A stretch of DNA of 64,000 nt from Flavobacteriia bacterium. Lineage in GTDB: Bacteria > Bacteroidota > Bacteroidia > Flavobacteriales_D > Crocinitomicaceae. The DNA lies in assembly GCA_947450325.1 (NCBI GenBank), contig CANFUT010000014.1, positions 1 to 64,000 on the forward strand, read 5' to 3'. A program made the position numbers and the translations under genes. Under the pieces are notes generated by a model. That model ran no database searches and was not told the origin of the DNA. It saw nothing but the letters and a program-made list of their open reading frames with translations. Below, piece after piece: positions 108 to 9,026 of the stretch (positions within the stretch are counted from its first letter, which is position 1; the number at the start of each line of letters is the position of its first letter).

Positions 108-154
108 ACAGGTATTTGTTTTGATCCGTTCTATTTTTACGGATAAGTCATAAC
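108..154 (+). repeat. Degenerate terminal CRISPR repeat
   Basis: The first repeat matches the consensus perfectly over its last 27 bp but differs at about half of its first 20 bp, exactly the part that would base-pair with the tracrRNA. No spacer lies upstream, so this half has no crRNA to serve. A degenerate repeat usually marks the leader-distal (oldest) end, which would place the active insertion end at 1998, next to cas2. Confidence 0.85.
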
Positions 155-1998
155 TTGGCCAAAAAGAGATCCACGGAAACCAAGGTTGTGATTTGCTTTC
201 AAAAGTTCTATTTTTACGGATAAGTCATAACGGATATGCCTTTGTCCAATTTGGTTGTGTGTTGTGATTTGCTTTCAAAAGTTCTATTTTTACGGATAAG
301 TCATAACCTGGTCCCACAAGATTATGCGAACTAGTTGGTTGTGATTTGCTTTCAAAAGTTCTATTTTTACGGATAAGTCATAACTGCAAAGTTCAACACC
401 AAAAGTGAACATCAGTTGTGATTTGCTTTCAAAAGTTCTATTTTTACGGATAAGTCATAACACGGAGTAGTTGGAGTTATTGCCGTTTGGGGTTGTGATT
501 TGCTTTCAAAAGTTCTATTTTTACGGATAAGTCATAACTAAGGAAAAAATCAAAATTCGTTTCATTACGTTGTGATTTGCTTTCAAAAGTTCTATTTTTA
601 CGGATAAGTCATAACTAGAGCGTTATCAGCGAAAGCAAGTGCCGAGTTGTGATTTGCTTTCAAAAGTTCTATTTTTACGGATAAGTCATAACACAAACTA
701 TTGATATCATCTTGTATTTTTAGTTGTGATTTGCTTTCAAAAGTTCTATTTTTACGGATAAGTCATAACAAAATTCGTAACCAGGCGCAACCTCTTCCGG
801 TTGTGATTTGCTTTCAAAAGTTCTATTTTTACGGATAAGTCATAACGTAATTATGGAAAAACAAATTAGCGCAGTAGTTGTGATTTGCTTTCAAAAGTTC
901 TATTTTTACGGATAAGTCATAACTACTGGAATTCGAGTTCAACTGTTCAAGCTGTTGTGATTTGCTTTCAAAAGTTCTATTTTTACGGATAAGTCATAAC
1001 TTGATTCGTTGTTGACGTTTCAATTCTTTGTTGTGATTTGCTTTCAAAAGTTCTATTTTTACGGATAAGTCATAACTCAAGTCAAACGGTAACAAGTAGC
1101 GCACCGTTGTGATTTGCTTTCAAAAGTTCTATTTTTACGGATAAGTCATAACTTTTTGGTGAAATATTCAACTGCACTTTTTGTTGTGATTTGCTTTCAA
1201 AAGTTCTATTTTTACGGATAAGTCATAACAAAAATATTTTAGATAGTAAACAATATTTAGTTGTGATTTGCTTTCAAAAGTTCTATTTTTACGGATAAGT
1301 CATAACTAAAATTAAGTGCATTGTTATTAAAGGTAAGTTGTGATTTGCTTTCAAAAGTTCTATTTTTACGGATAAGTCATAACCAACCGATGATCGTTTC
1401 ACGTTGCAATCCGGTTGTGATTTGCTTTCAAAAGTTCTATTTTTACGGATAAGTCATAACTATAAGGACTTCAAAAATCCTTAAAAACTAGTTGTGATTT
1501 GCTTTCAAAAGTTCTATTTTTACGGATAAGTCATAACTTCACAGCTTTTAAATGTTCCACCAGCCCCGTTGTGATTTGCTTTCAAAAGTTCTATTTTTAC
1601 GGATAAGTCATAACAGCACAATTTATCAAAAAAGAGGCAATTTGTTGTGATTTGCTTTCAAAAGTTCTATTTTTACGGATAAGTCATAACTCTGATTTCG
1701 TTTTATAAATCATCGTTGTTGTTGTGATTTGCTTTCAAAAGTTCTATTTTTACGGATAAGTCATAACCGCAACGGAAAAAATCGCAGTTACTAAATCGTT
1801 GTGATTTGCTTTCAAAAGTTCTATTTTTACGGATAAGTCATAACAGTTTCGCAATGAAATGGTTGAACTCGCGAGTTGTGATTTGCTTTCAAAAGTTCTA
1901 TTTTTACGGATAAGTCATAACAAAAGATTTTTTTCTTTTTGGATAAGCCATGTTGTGATTTGCTTTCAAAAGTTCTATTTTTACGGATAAGTCATAAC
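108..1998 (+). CRISPR. Type II-C CRISPR array, 25 repeats and 24 spacers
   Basis: Twenty-four identical 47-bp repeats, starting GTTGTGATTTGC and ending GATAAGTCATAAC, are preceded by one degenerate copy at 108-154. Spacers are 30 bp (20 of them) or 29 bp (4 of them, at 232-260, 1001-1029, 1077-1105 and 1615-1643), so the total length of 1891 bp is fully accounted for. The strand is assigned by the tracrRNA: repeat bases 1-24 pair with the anti-repeat at 8838-8860, so crRNAs read left to right, towards and opposite to the cas genes. The degenerate repeat keeps bases 21-47 unchanged and is altered only in the tracrRNA-pairing half. By eye, no spacer matches anything else in the window. Confidence 0.99.
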
Positions 1999-2131: not shown

Positions 2132-3369
<1,238 letters not shown>

Positions 3370-3509: not shown

Positions 3510-6500
3510 TTAATATTCTCCGACTTGAACTATTTTTCCGAGGTGATTAATTCTAACTTTTATAATATTTTCCAGAGGCGCCATACTTTTTATTTGCATA
3601 AAACTTGTTTCTTTTAAGACTTTATTATCATTTAGAATAGTTTCAAGATGATTTCTAAATTTGAAGTCACGAATTGTTGAATTTCCATATTGAATAACTG
3701 AGAGAGTTTGAACTCTAAACAAATTAGGACTTATCAAATGATAATTATTAATATCCAATAAATCAATTTCATTTGGTTTAAAACCTGTTTTTTCATTTGG
3801 AAAGACAAAATATTCATTTTGCTTAAGTGTAAATAAAAACGTCCATCCTTCATTACTTTTGAATGTTTTATCCACCGCAGTAAGTCCTTGATTTATTCTG
3901 ATGACTGCTTCATAAAATGAAACAACTTTTTCTTGAAGATTACCTTTTTCGTCTCTGTAAATTGCAACGTGGTGATTGTTTCCAGTATTTACAAAATCAA
4001 CCGCTTGTTTGTTGCCTTTTTTATCTAAAAGTAAATTTCCATTTTTATCTTTTTTGTCATGTAAAGCAACCGCATTGCTGATTCCAGAAATGGTAACTGT
4101 TTTTATAAAAATTCCTTTTTCTTCATTTAACCAAATTGGGAATTCATCTAAATTTGAAAATGCTTTCTTTGCGTCACCAAATTTTTGCAATCTATCTTCT
4201 AATATTTTACGAATTTTCACATCAATAACTTTGTCAACTTTTAATTCAGGAGTGATAGATTTTCGAATAGTATAAATAGTAATCTCAGAAACAAGCTTTA
4301 CCTTTTCAGGAACGAATTGGGTTTTTTCATCATTAATGTAAATTGGATTTTTTTCTAAACTATTTTTTCCAGAAAATGCTTTTTTAGGATCATTGTCGAA
4401 TTCGTTAAGTCTAGCCAATAAAGCTTCTCTGTGAATCTTTTTTGCAACGTTAATAATCATCTCCTCATTGAAATTACTTCCAACCTTTAAAATAGAAGTT
4501 TCATATTGCTTTATACTTCCATAAACTGTTTCTAAATGCAGTTGACCTCTTGGTGTGAGTGTAGTTTGAGCATTTTCATTCCCTTTAGTTTTATTTTTAT
4601 TTGGAGTAACAAGTTTATTCTTCGCTTTGAAAGAAATCAATGTATTTTCAAGATGTTTCTTAGCTTCCGCACGAAATTTATTAAGTTCCATAGGAGGATT
4701 AAACCTTAATTTATTTCTTTCATCTTTGTATAGTTCTTTCTTTTCTATCCCAATAACCTTAGAAAACTCTTTGCTGTTTTCATCTTTTCGAGCGTTTAAA
4801 TGATTTAAGTACTGCACATGACTTGGACGCGTAAATGCAACTGTTAATGCATCCATAGCATGATGTCTATGGTCGTTTCTCTTTGTCCAATCTTCAATTC
4901 GAGGTAATTTTTTTCCTTCTCTGTTTGTCTCGAAATAAGTCAAACCTAGTTTTTCATACTTTTCCCAATTTAATTCTTGTAAAACATTGACCAATTGCCA
5001 ATCTTCACGTAATCTGTTTGTTATACTTCCGGTAGTTGTATTGACAGTGCGGCAAACTTCATAAAGCATTTCTCGTGCTTTTTTGGCTATGTATTGCGAA
5101 TTTCTTAAATCTCTTTCAATAAAACCATCTTCAATTTCCTTAGATTTTTTGAGAAGTTTGTTCAATTTTCCTTTTTTGCCTTCGACATTTTTAAACAAAT
5201 CTTCTACTCTTTGCTCATAGTCTCGCAAACTTCCTTCACCATATTTTTCGAGGATAAAATCATAGGCAGTTTTATCTCCTTTTTCGATGTTAATACTTCT
5301 TAATTCAAGCGTTTTGTTGGAGAAAGAATCGTCAAACATTCTTGATTGTGGAATAATGTGTTCAATGTCAAACTCTTTTGAAAACAACTTGTCTGCAGAA
5401 ATATATGTATTCGAGTACAAAGTTTTGTAGCCATTTGGTTCCAGTTCTTTGTAAAGTTTATACCGTATCAAATCATTTTTGCTCACATATGATAAACCAA
5501 ATTCATTTTTAAGAATTTGCTTAAATTTTTCATGTTCGGCAGTCGATCTATTTATTCCTTTGGTTGTTTCTTCTCGTTCTTTTGCACTTTTTTTCAATTC
5601 ACGAGCCAACTCCAATCGAATTTCATCAGGTTTTCCGTACTCGTCAATAATTGCGTTTACAACATGAATAGTTTGATTTAATATTTTTTCAACTACAGGA
5701 TTTCTTAAACTGTTTTTGTCTAAAAGTGTCAATTTGTCCTTTAATTCCCTTGTAGCTAATTCTTCTTTATTCAACGATTTAGAATGGTTGTATCCAGCTT
5801 TAAAAGCTGCCTCACTATATTCAAAACCGTCTTTTAAATGAGGTAGAATTTTTGAAATTGCTTTAGAACTCAAACTGCCATAATCGGGTTCAAACGTAAT
5901 ATTTGCTAAAAGTGATGCAAATTCTTTTTCGAAACCAAATTTCTCGTTCAATTTGATTATCAAACTATCGTTTCCAGTATTGGAATTATCTCCTTCATAA
6001 GAATATAATAAATGCCAAAGCTGAAATGCAGCTTGTTTTTCAAAAGCTTTGCCCTCTAAATCGGCATTGAATCGTAAAATATCTGTATTTATTCCAAGTG
6101 TTTTGAAGACTTTTTCAACTACATCGAGGATTTCGTTAGCCGACATTTTGGAAAATTCAAACTCTCCATGTCCTGATAAATCAATTATTTTACAGTAAAA
6201 TTCAAATAGATTTGCATTTGTTCTGTTACCATCAATATCTTTAAAGTTTAAGTCTAGTTCCTTGTGATTTTGATAGAGTAACTTTAAAATTTCATCCTTT
6301 TTGAGTGATTTTTTAACGTTAAGTTCTGCAAACAAAATATTTTTACATTCCTCATCCAATCTCCATTTTAATCTGTCTTTTTTATGTAAAACTTCTAAGT
6401 CATTCAAGCGTTGCCAAATTCGAAATTCTTGAAATAATGGAGAAGATTTAGGAGTTACTTTTGGACCAATTAATCTCATTTTAGGCTTTCCATCGATAGA

Positions 6501-7670
6501 AACTTCAATTTCTTTACTTTCAAGTTCGCAAGTACTAATCAAACTTTTTTGTGATTTCAATTTTCTTTGATAGAAAATGCAAATATCCTTTAATTCAGTT
6601 TTCAATTCATTTGAAAGTGAACTGTGATGTTTTGACTGTTCTTTCCAAATTGCATCAAACTCATTATCGTAATCTTTACGATAAAACACTTGCCCTTTCA
6701 ATCGTGTATGGCGATTTTCTTGAATTTGACGGTACATGAATTGTCCAACAGTTTGTTTGTTGAAAAACAGTTCTTTACTACGGTCACTAATATCTCCGAA
6801 ATATCCACTGGATTTATTGATATCGTTATTGATTTCTGTTAAAACATACGCTACTTCCTCTTTGGTCAATTGTTTTTGCAAGCCTTCATTGCGCCATTTA
6901 TAAGCTTGTAATTTCTTTTCTTCCCTATTTCCTTTCTTTTCTGCCGTGTTGAAATTATAAGTTGACCAAAAAATTGCGGAAGTTGCTCTTTGACCTTTGC
7001 CTTTTATTTTTTCTTTGAAATCTTCAGTTAAAATTTCCGAATGAAACTCTTTCTGGAAATCCCAAATTTTATCAAATTCATTTTGTAAATCAGATCGATA
7101 AAAGTCAGGTAGATTTTTTTTGCCTTCATTTAAAAGTAATAAGCAATATTGACCTGGAGTTAGATTTTCTTCATAAAGTTTTAAAGCAACTTCCATTCCG
7201 TCAATCAATTGTCCCTCATCTTCATTTTTTACTTTTCTACTACTTTTATATCCTCGTTTCTTATTTATCGACAATAAAACCCTTGCAAATTCTTCCTTTG
7301 ATATTTTTTCAGTAACAGCTTTAGCTCTCAGCTCAAGTGTCTGATAAGTAGTGTTTTTACCTTCTTCTGAAAAATTTGATTCATTTGTAATAAATCCATT
7401 TTTCATCAGAACTTTAAGCAATACACTTCTTCGTAGTTTATAGCGTTGCAAATTTCTTCTTGCACTTCTGCTGTTTGTTCGGTCTTGGTTAGTTGTTATT
7501 GCTTTTCCTTTTTCAAAATTTCCAATTTCATCAGTACTTAAAGGAATTACTCTCACACCGGTTCTGAGGATTTCAGATTCTTGATTATTTTTTTCAAGAA
7601 CCAAAGCCCAACCTATACTGGTGCTTCCTAAATCCAACCCCAAAATCACTCTCCCATTTTCATTGCTCAT
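3510..7670 (-). CDS. cas9: CRISPR-associated endonuclease Cas9 (subtype II-C, large form)
   Basis: This 1386-aa RNA-guided DNA endonuclease is intact. RuvC-I is at the N-terminus (ILGLDLGSTSIGW, catalytic D13), followed by an arginine-rich bridge helix (RSARRNLQRYKLRR, about 68-81). RuvC-II (IRLELAREL) carries E687, the HNH domain (FDIEHIIPQ) carries H771, and RuvC-III (DHRHHAMDAL) carries H937 and D940. All four catalytic positions are therefore present. The C-terminal part after about 1000 should hold the PAM-interacting domain, but it cannot be read from sequence alone. The length is well above compact II-C enzymes such as those of Neisseria or Campylobacter and fits the long Bacteroidetes branch. 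The upstream neighbour is the HIRAN gene, 39 bp away on the same strand. Confidence 0.98.
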   Translation of the reverse strand: MSNENGRVILGLDLGSTSIGWALVLEKNNQESEILRTGVRVIPLSTDEIGNFEKGKAITTNQDRTNSRSARRNLQRYKLRRSVLLKVLMKNGFITNESNFSEEGKNTTYQTLELRAKAVTEKISKEEFARVLLSINKKRGYKSSRKVKNEDEGQLIDGMEVALKLYEENLTPGQYCLLLLNEGKKNLPDFYRSDLQNEFDKIWDFQKEFHSEILTEDFKEKIKGKGQRATSAIFWSTYNFNTAEKKGNREEKKLQAYKWRNEGLQKQLTKEEVAYVLTEINNDINKSSGYFGDISDRSKELFFNKQTVGQFMYRQIQENRHTRLKGQVFYRKDYDNEFDAIWKEQSKHHSSLSNELKTELKDICIFYQRKLKSQKSLISTCELESKEIEVSIDGKPKMRLIGPKVTPKSSPLFQEFRIWQRLNDLEVLHKKDRLKWRLDEECKNILFAELNVKKSLKKDEILKLLYQNHKELDLNFKDIDGNRTNANLFEFYCKIIDLSGHGEFEFSKMSANEILDVVEKVFKTLGINTDILRFNADLEGKAFEKQAAFQLWHLLYSYEGDNSNTGNDSLIIKLNEKFGFEKEFASLLANITFEPDYGSLSSKAISKILPHLKDGFEYSEAAFKAGYNHSKSLNKEELATRELKDKLTLLDKNSLRNPVVEKILNQTIHVVNAIIDEYGKPDEIRLELARELKKSAKEREETTKGINRSTAEHEKFKQILKNEFGLSYVSKNDLIRYKLYKELEPNGYKTLYSNTYISADKLFSKEFDIEHIIPQSRMFDDSFSNKTLELRSINIEKGDKTAYDFILEKYGEGSLRDYEQRVEDLFKNVEGKKGKLNKLLKKSKEIEDGFIERDLRNSQYIAKKAREMLYEVCRTVNTTTGSITNRLREDWQLVNVLQELNWEKYEKLGLTYFETNREGKKLPRIEDWTKRNDHRHHAMDALTVAFTRPSHVQYLNHLNARKDENSKEFSKVIGIEKKELYKDERNKLRFNPPMELNKFRAEAKKHLENTLISFKAKNKLVTPNKNKTKGNENAQTTLTPRGQLHLETVYGSIKQYETSILKVGSNFNEEMIINVAKKIHREALLARLNEFDNDPKKAFSGKNSLEKNPIYINDEKTQFVPEKVKLVSEITIYTIRKSITPELKVDKVIDVKIRKILEDRLQKFGDAKKAFSNLDEFPIWLNEEKGIFIKTVTISGISNAVALHDKKDKNGNLLLDKKGNKQAVDFVNTGNNHHVAIYRDEKGNLQEKVVSFYEAVIRINQGLTAVDKTFKSNEGWTFLFTLKQNEYFVFPNEKTGFKPNEIDLLDINNYHLISPNLFRVQTLSVIQYGNSTIRDFKFRNHLETILNDNKVLKETSFMQIKSMAPLENIIKVRINHLGKIVQVGEY

Positions 7671-7709
7671 CGTAATATAAATTAAGTTGCTTAAAACTAG
7701 TTAAAATAT

Positions 7710-8708
7710 TCAATTTGATTTCTTTCCGTTAAAATTTGTTTGAAATTCTTTCAAATAGTGAATTAATTTCCTGTTTTTCAATTTGTTCGTCTGGGCAAAG
7801 CCCAACTTTTTTAATCTAGAAATTGTATTGTTTTTATCCTCAAAAACAACTTCAAAATAAGGCAAACCATATTCTCCCACCACTGGCTTAATGCCTGTAG
7901 CTATAAAATTGTTGTCCATTAGTTTATTGATGTCAAATACAAAAAACCTTTCTTGCTTGAGATATTCCTTCTTTTGGTTGTAATGGAAATTGATTTTTTC
8001 CATCAAAAGATCTTCTTCCTGCTGGGTGATAAAAGGTATAATGGTTTGCATCGTGTCTACCGAATTCAGTTCTTTTTCAAATTCATCAATTGAGTCAAGT
8101 GAATAGTAAACAAGAGAAGCTTCATCATATTCATTTGATTTAGACCATTTTTTTTCAAAATAAATATCGGCTTTGATTCTCGGAAGCGATTCACTTTCAT
8201 AGTTACTAATTGTGGAAATTCTCGTCAAAGTATCATCCTCTGATTTCAATGAATAATATTTTGGCGTTTTCAATGCGGCATACGGTTCGATTTTTTTCCA
8301 ATCTTCGTTGTTTTTTATTTCTTTCAAAGCATAAATAGCCACTCTAATTTGTTCCCAATGGTCTGCTTCAGGTTCGATATTTGTAATTTCAGCGTGAAAT
8401 TCTAATAAATCAGTATCCATTAAAATACTGATAGTTTTGTTGCTTTCTCTGGGTACAAATCCAATTTTCTTTTTGTTGAAATACAAAGCTATGGCACGCT
8501 TATCAACAGTGTTTTCAGGCTCGCGAACTAATTCAATCAATCCACTTTTATTGATTTCATCAATGCACTTTGGACCTTCATAGTATTGAAATCCTCGCAC
8601 AAAGAATTGCTTTAAATATACTTTTTCGTATTGTTTTATTTCGAGAGTAGAAATATTGGTCAAACCATAAATTCCAACTAAACTTTTTACAAACTCTATT
8701 CGTTTCAT
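7710..8708 (-). CDS. HIRAN-domain protein embedded in the CRISPR-Cas9 locus
   Basis: This 332-aa protein has a clear HIRAN domain at about residues 30-128: RGFQYYEG, then LIELVREPENTVDKRAIALY (R62, E63, P64, N66, D69), then IGFVPRESN (G83, P86, N90). HIRAN domains are known as DNA-binding modules; in human HLTF the domain recognises 3' single-stranded DNA ends. Residues 130-332 match nothing I recognise and show no visible nuclease, helicase or methylase motif, signal peptide or membrane segment. The gene lies between tracrRNA and cas9, on the cas strand, with 39 bp to the cas9 start, so co-transcription with cas9 is likely. A role in prespacer or DNA-end handling is inference. II-C systems lack Csn2 and Cas4, so such a partner would fill a gap. 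Confidence 0.85.
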   Translation of the reverse strand: MKRIEFVKSLVGIYGLTNISTLEIKQYEKVYLKQFFVRGFQYYEGPKCIDEINKSGLIELVREPENTVDKRAIALYFNKKKIGFVPRESNKTISILMDTDLLEFHAEITNIEPEADHWEQIRVAIYALKEIKNNEDWKKIEPYAALKTPKYYSLKSEDDTLTRISTISNYESESLPRIKADIYFEKKWSKSNEYDEASLVYYSLDSIDEFEKELNSVDTMQTIIPFITQQEEDLLMEKINFHYNQKKEYLKQERFFVFDINKLMDNNFIATGIKPVVGEYGLPYFEVVFEDKNNTISRLKKLGFAQTNKLKNRKLIHYLKEFQTNFNGKKSN

Positions 8709-8801
8709 TTATCAAAATTTTACACAAACGTAGTTTGAGACATCGTAATCTATGTACGTTCTTCATAATCCGTAGAAAATATTTTTTTTTCGTCTGATTT
8801 A

Positions 8802-8832
8802 TTTGTTTACATGAAATTAATTAATAAGTTTG
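8802..8832 (+). promoter_or_regulatory. Promoter of tracrRNA (Bacteroidetes type)
   Basis: TTTG at 8802-8805 and TAAGTTTG at 8825-8832 are separated by 19 bp, an essentially perfect match to the Bacteroidetes primary-sigma consensus (TTTG at -33, TAnnTTTG at -7). The predicted start falls at about 8838-8839, exactly at the first base of the anti-repeat. Confidence 0.85.
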
Positions 8833-8837
8833 TGTCA

Positions 8838-8924
8838 GAACTTTTGAAGCAAATCACAATAAGGATTATTCCGTTGTGAAAACATTTGGGTCGCCTCTTG
8901 TCCATAATCAGGAGGCTTTTTTTC
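8838..8924 (+). ncRNA. tracrRNA
   Basis: The 5' end (8838-8860) is an anti-repeat that pairs with repeat bases 1-24 over 23 pairs, including one terminal G-U, leaving a single bulged U (repeat base 15). It is followed by AAGGATTATTCC (8861-8872), a short nexus-like hairpin, then a single-stranded stretch, then a terminator hairpin (stems 8893-8900 and 8909-8916, one wobble) with a run of seven T. The RNA, about 87 nt, would form the dual guide with crRNA for the downstream Cas9. It is transcribed opposite to the cas operon and in the same direction as the array. Confidence 0.93.
8893..8924 (+). terminator. tracrRNA rho-independent terminator
   Basis: The stem GCCTCTTG / CAGGAGGC (8 bp including one G-T wobble) has an 8-base loop and is followed directly by TTTTTTT at 8917-8923. 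It is also the 3' hairpin of the tracrRNA. Confidence 0.92.
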
Positions 8925-9026
8925 GCCTATGAATTTTGGAAGATTCATTACTGCAATTTATTCCCAAATCGAAACGCAATAATTTTTTTCTAATATCTTT
9001 GATTTTAAATTTATTCAATCAAAATC

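Follow-up and report, generated by a model that had tools for sequence, protein, structure and literature searches.

The HIRAN domain of the human protein HLTF binds the 3′-OH of single-stranded DNA (PMC11237066). HLTF removes Cas9 after cleavage and induces multi-turnover behaviour of Cas9, and the removal requires both the HIRAN domain and the 3′ end freed by RuvC (PMC11237066). HLTF also requires its motor, and the isolated HIRAN domain inhibited Cas9 removal by HLTF (PMC11237066). The interaction between HLTF and Cas9 is so far known only from human proteins and genome editing. Accessory genes in type II-C CRISPR loci are of a known kind (PMC13153721, PMC12669027); one of them encodes PcrIIC1, a PIN-domain pro-CRISPR factor of CbCas9 (PMC13153721).

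We analysed a stretch of 64,000 nucleotides of bacterial DNA (the window) that contains a HIRAN gene within a type II-C cas locus. With HLTF and Rad5, the window protein shares a HIRAN domain that profile comparison recognises (the window-type alignment matches HLTF chains at E ∼ 6e-6) and in which the key Asp and the aromatic pair are kept; HLTF has a documented link to Cas9 products. Unlike HLTF and Rad5, the window protein is bacterial, is encoded within a cas locus and consists of 332 aa with the HIRAN domain only, lacking an SNF2 motor or a RING. Like PcrIIC1, it comes from an additional gene of a locus with a large II-C Cas9, the two Cas9s being broadly alike, but PcrIIC1 is a PIN-domain protein to which it has no detectable similarity; we rejected identity with PcrIIC1, since Pfam found only HIRAN and there was no PDB match to PcrIIC1.

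The best solved match of the cas9-linked HIRAN proteins is lp_0118 (PDB 3k2y; E of 6e-11 for the short clade and 9e-8 for the window type), likewise a stand-alone bacterial HIRAN-like protein. At 109 aa it is uncharacterised, and it lacks both the tail described below and the window protein's C-terminal part. HipI and the PDC-M03B models also place a HIRAN domain in candidate defence loci, but the match is restricted to that domain (PDC-M03B profile positions 125–234 of 250) and the window gene has no HipA neighbour. By these tests the protein is not a HipI or PDC-M03 antitoxin: no full-length model matched, and the gene is flanked by cas9 and a GDSL lipase gene.

The HIRAN domain is absent from the main text of both the 2025 CRISPR classification and the 2023 clustering survey, and full-text literature searches that paired HIRAN with Cas9 of type II-C, or with both Cas1 and Bacteroidetes, returned nothing. 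Zhang 2024 (Nature 630:484) reportedly describes new genes in II-C loci; this work and the 2018 neighbourhood survey may already include HIRAN.

The HIRAN gene in its II-C locus

The locus comprises the following features.

108–1998, plus strand: CRISPR array; degenerate repeat at 108–154, 24 identical 47-nt repeats at 185–1998, spacers of 29–30 nt
2132–2470, minus strand: cas2 (TIGR01573)
2473–3369, minus strand: cas1, type II (TIGR03639)
3510–7670, minus strand: cas9, 1386 aa, with RuvC_III and HNH_4
7671–7709, minus strand: gap between the HIRAN gene and cas9, 39 bp, without a TAnnTTTG promoter box
7710–8708, minus strand: HIRAN-domain gene, 332 aa; HIRAN at about residues 34–126, residues ∼135–332 without a known domain
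8709–8732, minus strand: leader of HIRAN and cas9, with the box TACGTTTG, which starts 24 bp before the start codon of HIRAN
8825–8832, plus strand: tracrRNA promoter box TAAGTTTG
about 8832–8925, plus strand: tracrRNA, start approximate; anti-repeat at 8837–8859, terminator at 8893–8916 plus a T run

The presence of cas9 with RuvC and HNH, cas1, cas2, a tracrRNA and an array assigns the locus to type II-C, and the operon contains neither csn2 nor cas4. On the minus strand, the order is HIRAN, cas9, cas1, cas2 and then the array, cas1 and cas2 being the only genes that separate cas9 from the array. The closest solved structure to the window Cas9 is CbCas9. The tracrRNA anti-repeat agrees with the repeat in 23 of 24 bases (predicted duplex, −35 kcal/mol) and is followed by a good intrinsic terminator. 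Since the tracrRNA lies on the plus strand, it is divergent from HIRAN, which is thus framed by CRISPR parts, with the tracrRNA on one side and cas9 on the other. The initial annotation had described this arrangement of a 332-aa HIRAN protein 39 bp upstream of a same-strand cas9, and the open reading frame, the Pfam match and the anti-repeat confirm it. The range that it gave was 7710–8838; the part 7710–8708 is the gene, and the remainder extends beyond it into the promoter region.

The Bacteroidetes TAnnTTTG box is present in both the HIRAN and the tracrRNA promoters. Locus L058 has the same tracrRNA and a Cas9 78% identical to that of the window, without HIRAN, and its cas9 leader (box TATATTTG) aligns with the window HIRAN leader. 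Since the leader of cas9 in L058 corresponds to that of HIRAN in the window, and since the gap between HIRAN and cas9 has no box, the cas9 unit probably begins with HIRAN; judging from these sequences, HIRAN and cas9 probably form one transcription unit.

The HIRAN domain (PF08797) matches residues 34–126 with E = 1.4e-12 and 47.7 bits, against a cut-off of 24.7; the Pfam scan recognised no other domain in the protein and, in particular, no nuclease domain. The gene is the only HIRAN gene of the window genome. The window's genus keeps the arrangement: the HIRAN proteins of its loci L001 (from a sister genome) and L002 are 96% and 62% identical to the window protein, and both genes lie directly upstream of cas9. 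Between the window and L002 genes, dN/dS is ∼0.1, with dS near saturation, and by this comparison the window gene is under purifying selection. In L001, an in-frame TGA (codon 315) cuts the HIRAN gene (L001:10001–10996) 18 codons short, so the extreme C-terminus may be dispensable.

The ∼200 C-terminal residues, proposed in the initial annotation to be a new domain, do not recur: they are found only in the window's genus, and the other linked HIRAN proteins end differently. Comparison with the C-terminus of the L131 protein gave no significant similarity, the score not exceeding that of shuffled sequences, and we therefore discarded the idea of a shared C-terminal domain. AlphaFold, run on an alignment of three sequences, gave a mean pLDDT of 32. 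A phage, viral or plasmid origin was also rejected, since the queries had no relatives on phage or viral contigs and only two distant plasmid HIRANs were found. The N-terminal MxRxxFL motif is not a Tat signal, as it lacks the second arginine and also occurs in unlinked HIRANs.

The aromatic and Asp residues of the HIRAN pocket are largely kept, and every member of the short linked clade has the Asp. In the window protein, D69, N66 and Y42/Y43 align with HLTF residues that we take to be Asp94, Asn91 and Tyr72/Tyr73, respectively. HLTF Arg71 is not kept.

HIRAN genes in cas9 loci of Bacteroidia

Repeated linkage in distant genomes had been set beforehand as the test of the association, and, with the window counted, it was found in 15 Bacteroidia II-C loci, which represent 13 genera and 9 families. 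Since the linkage recurs in distant genomes, a functional tie of HIRAN to the II-C locus is well supported, and the gene probably assists Cas9 immunity as a so far unstudied factor and is not a chance neighbour. In the 15 loci, HIRAN is placed as follows.

Upstream of cas9: window, L001, L002, L054, L128, L129, L145
Downstream of cas9: L085, L091, L124, L125, L127
One gene away from cas9: L131
After cas2, between cas2 and the array: L130, with the N-terminal part of HIRAN broken by a stop
Divergent: L142

HIRAN thus directly adjoins cas9 in 12 of the 15 loci, it lies on the cas9 strand in 14, and the two genes are mostly laid out like a single unit. In L054, L091 and L125, cas1–cas2 are on the opposite strand and HIRAN stays with cas9; in L091 and L125, HIRAN and cas9 overlap by 4 bp. 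In L085 and L124, HIRAN is situated between cas9 and cas1.

Within the window's family, Cas9 occurs in 33 of 240 genomes. Beyond the window's genus, the family search adds a genome of another genus (G008), in which the HIRAN gene of L054 lies 18 bp upstream of cas9 and encodes a protein with 31% identity to the window protein over the matched part. The order-wide search adds L085 (G333) and L091 (G319), with HIRAN immediately after cas9 in both. A class-wide search with a model built from the linked HIRANs found HIRAN in 32 of 395 genomes, nine of which, besides the window, carry it in a cas locus (L124, L125, L127–L131, L142 and L145).

Cas9 is present in 96 of the 395 genomes of the class sample. 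HIRAN occurs in 16 of these 96 and in 16 of the other 299, more often with Cas9 than expected (Fisher P ∼ 0.001). Of the 17 HIRAN genes in Cas9-positive genomes, 10 lie in the cas locus (9 of 16 without the window); the corresponding binomial probability of ∼2e-20 assumes a 0.4% chance per gene and independent genomes and serves as a guide only, the loci coming from many genera. To counter the bias of a search begun from linked HIRANs, we retrieved most of the remaining Cas9 loci in the class sample; a Cas9-centred rescan with a broad HIRAN model, covering about 90 loci, returned the same 10 and no further HIRAN. Roughly one in ten Bacteroidia II-C loci therefore carries HIRAN, and ∼90% of cas9 loci in the class, including that of the close relative L058, do not.

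HIRAN genes are also common away from CRISPR loci, so HIRAN proteins taken together are not specific to CRISPR. Locus L126 was considered as a hidden CRISPR locus and rejected: its contig ends nearby and bears no CRISPR repeats or cas genes. In a genome of another class (G988, L270), HIRAN lies ∼1.2 kb from cas9, divergent and with one further gene between them; we left this case uncounted.

Clustering of the cas-flanking genes ranks HIRAN as the second commonest non-cas family in the collected loci, a generous rank since the set includes loci fetched for their HIRAN. The commonest extra gene encodes a REP-associated tyrosine-transposase-like (Y1/HUH) protein. It is found in 21 collected Bacteroidia II-C loci, often between cas9 and cas1 (e.g., L219:9105–9758, L085:1301–1876, L124:3790–4407 and ∼18 others), and matches NF047646 with E = 1.7e-18, below the model's cut-off. 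RhuM-family genes, some fused to Fic, recur in L059, L068, L069, L073, L075, L125, L178, L194 and L216, again often between cas9 and cas1. An ATPase gene (PF01637; L130:5573–6706) lies between cas9 and cas1, and its family recurs in six II-C loci. HTH/WYL-type regulator-like genes stand beside cas9 or HIRAN at L145:6837–7751 (the only one covered by a Pfam scan), L270:2819–3841, L228:4177–5127 and L079:2543–3463. In G009, a GIY-YIG nuclease-like gene (L060:4427–4753) is directly upstream of cas9, the position of HIRAN in the window.

Lineages, exchange and a C-terminal tail

HIRAN is distributed patchily over the Cas9 tree, with 12 changes, of which at least 11 are required by well-supported branches in this small sample. 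The linked Cas9s belong to distant clades, some sharing only 25–34% identity with the query that they match best. The linked HIRANs in turn come from several HIRAN lineages. A first clade (support 97/97) has nine members, all but one of them CRISPR-linked. A looser second group contains the window, L001, L002, L130 and L131 together with the unlinked L126 and L132 (and the pair L145/L146), and L142 is a single separate case. In these samples, which are small, HIRAN distances follow neither those of Cas9 (Mantel P 0.80) nor those of Cas1 (P 0.13). We thus rejected co-divergence with either protein, and HIRAN genes appear to have been exchanged between loci.

All eight linked HIRANs of the first clade carry the tail [AS]D[DN]xx[DE]xYR (ADDxxDxYR), no more than 11 residues from the C-terminus. 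None of the 35 unlinked HIRANs of this small set has it, nor does the window protein. The motif suggests that at least the first clade also docks on some conserved protein.

A possible role after cleavage, and its alternatives

On the evidence of its linkage, the window gene probably codes for an accessory factor that serves the II-C Cas9 locus; its mechanism we infer from HLTF. Other Cas9s stay on their own cut DNA. We tentatively propose, by analogy with HLTF, that the HIRAN proteins bind the 3′ end freed by RuvC after cleavage and aid Cas9 turnover or destruction of the target. Once cut by RuvC, the non-target strand would expose its 3′ end, single-stranded and free, on the surface of Cas9, and the HIRAN domain would bind this end and prevent it from re-annealing. 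Bound HIRAN would then help Cas9 to leave the cut product, deliver the end to helicase-nucleases of the host for final destruction of the invader, or do both, and the released fragments could secondarily supply Cas1–Cas2.

HIRAN would target the cut DNA, a product that all Cas9s share, instead of a tailored Cas9 surface, and this would allow its gene to pass from one Cas9 clade to another; that HIRAN and Cas9 do not co-diverge likewise suits DNA as the partner. Since the isolated HIRAN domain of HLTF is inhibitory, a bacterial HIRAN without a motor may either free Cas9 or shield the end; turnover with hand-over to host nucleases is our preferred option over end shielding, held with low confidence. 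DNA-end handling, as already suggested in the initial annotation, is inferred from the largely kept pocket residues and from the action of the HLTF HIRAN domain on Cas9-made 3′ ends (PMC11237066).

An adaptation factor would instead bind 3′ overhangs and protect prespacers or deliver them to Cas1–Cas2, the role of Cas4 or Csn2 elsewhere. Prespacers carry 3′ overhangs, and II-C systems are without Csn2 and Cas4. The position of HIRAN next to the array in L130 and next to cas1 in L085 and L124 fits this role, and so does array turnover (none of the 15 spacers in the 16-repeat array of L001 is common to the window). However, HIRAN shows no co-divergence with Cas1, no nuclease domain was recognised in the window protein, and in L054, L091 and L125 the gene is on the cas9 strand, opposite cas1–cas2. 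Since HIRAN goes with cas9, an acquisition role is less favoured than one after cleavage, and we consider it unlikely. A direct Cas9 partner, which would bind the protein and raise DNA binding or cleavage as PcrIIC1 does for CbCas9, seems improbable to us as well: the HIRAN protein is not a PIN protein and has no PDB match to the CbCas9–PcrIIC1 entries, its linked Cas9s come from distant clades with which it does not co-diverge, and the window protein lacks the tail. That tail (8 of 8 linked members of one clade, none of 35 unlinked) does resemble a docking peptide, CbCas9 is nearest to the window Cas9 among solved structures, and pro-CRISPR genes are known in large II-C loci (PMC13153721, PMC12669027).

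HIRAN could also be a passenger or separate defence gene (e.g., HipI antitoxin-like, PADLOC PDC-M03) that moves between defence islands and settles by cas9 without a joint function. Its patchiness on the Cas9 tree, its several lineages and the recurrence of RhuM and REP-type transposase genes in the same loci agree with this, as do the matches of PDC-M03B models to the HIRAN domain and the described HIRAN–HipA pairs (PMC11706625). Yet HIRAN is adjacent to and co-directional with cas9 far above chance, and one well-supported HIRAN clade has 8 of its 9 members in cas loci; moreover, the PADLOC matches span the HIRAN domain only and no HipA is present among the Pfam-scanned neighbours, and we judge this explanation rather doubtful. 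As the first gene of the cas9 unit, HIRAN might tune expression of cas9 or the tracrRNA: it lies between the two, takes over the leader and has regulator-like HTH/WYL genes beside it in L145 and apparently in L270. To our knowledge, HIRAN has no role in promoter recognition, and it is downstream of cas9 in five of the loci listed above (L085, L091, L124, L125 and L127), which makes a locus regulator very improbable.

Extending the post-cleavage proposal to the class, Bacteroidia II-C systems may repeatedly have recruited HIRANs that are dedicated to Cas9 and seize the 3′ strand end released by RuvC; the HLTF–Cas9 interaction would then have a natural parallel. We regard this scenario as possible but uncertain. 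If HIRAN raises turnover or end processing, it could be of use in genome editing. The linkage bears on how II-C Cas9 is recycled in its native hosts, if II-C Cas9 stays on cut DNA, and on how DNA ends are managed in II-C systems without Csn2 or Cas4; with a cas9-linked protein that carries an HLTF-type domain, both questions are testable with two purified proteins.
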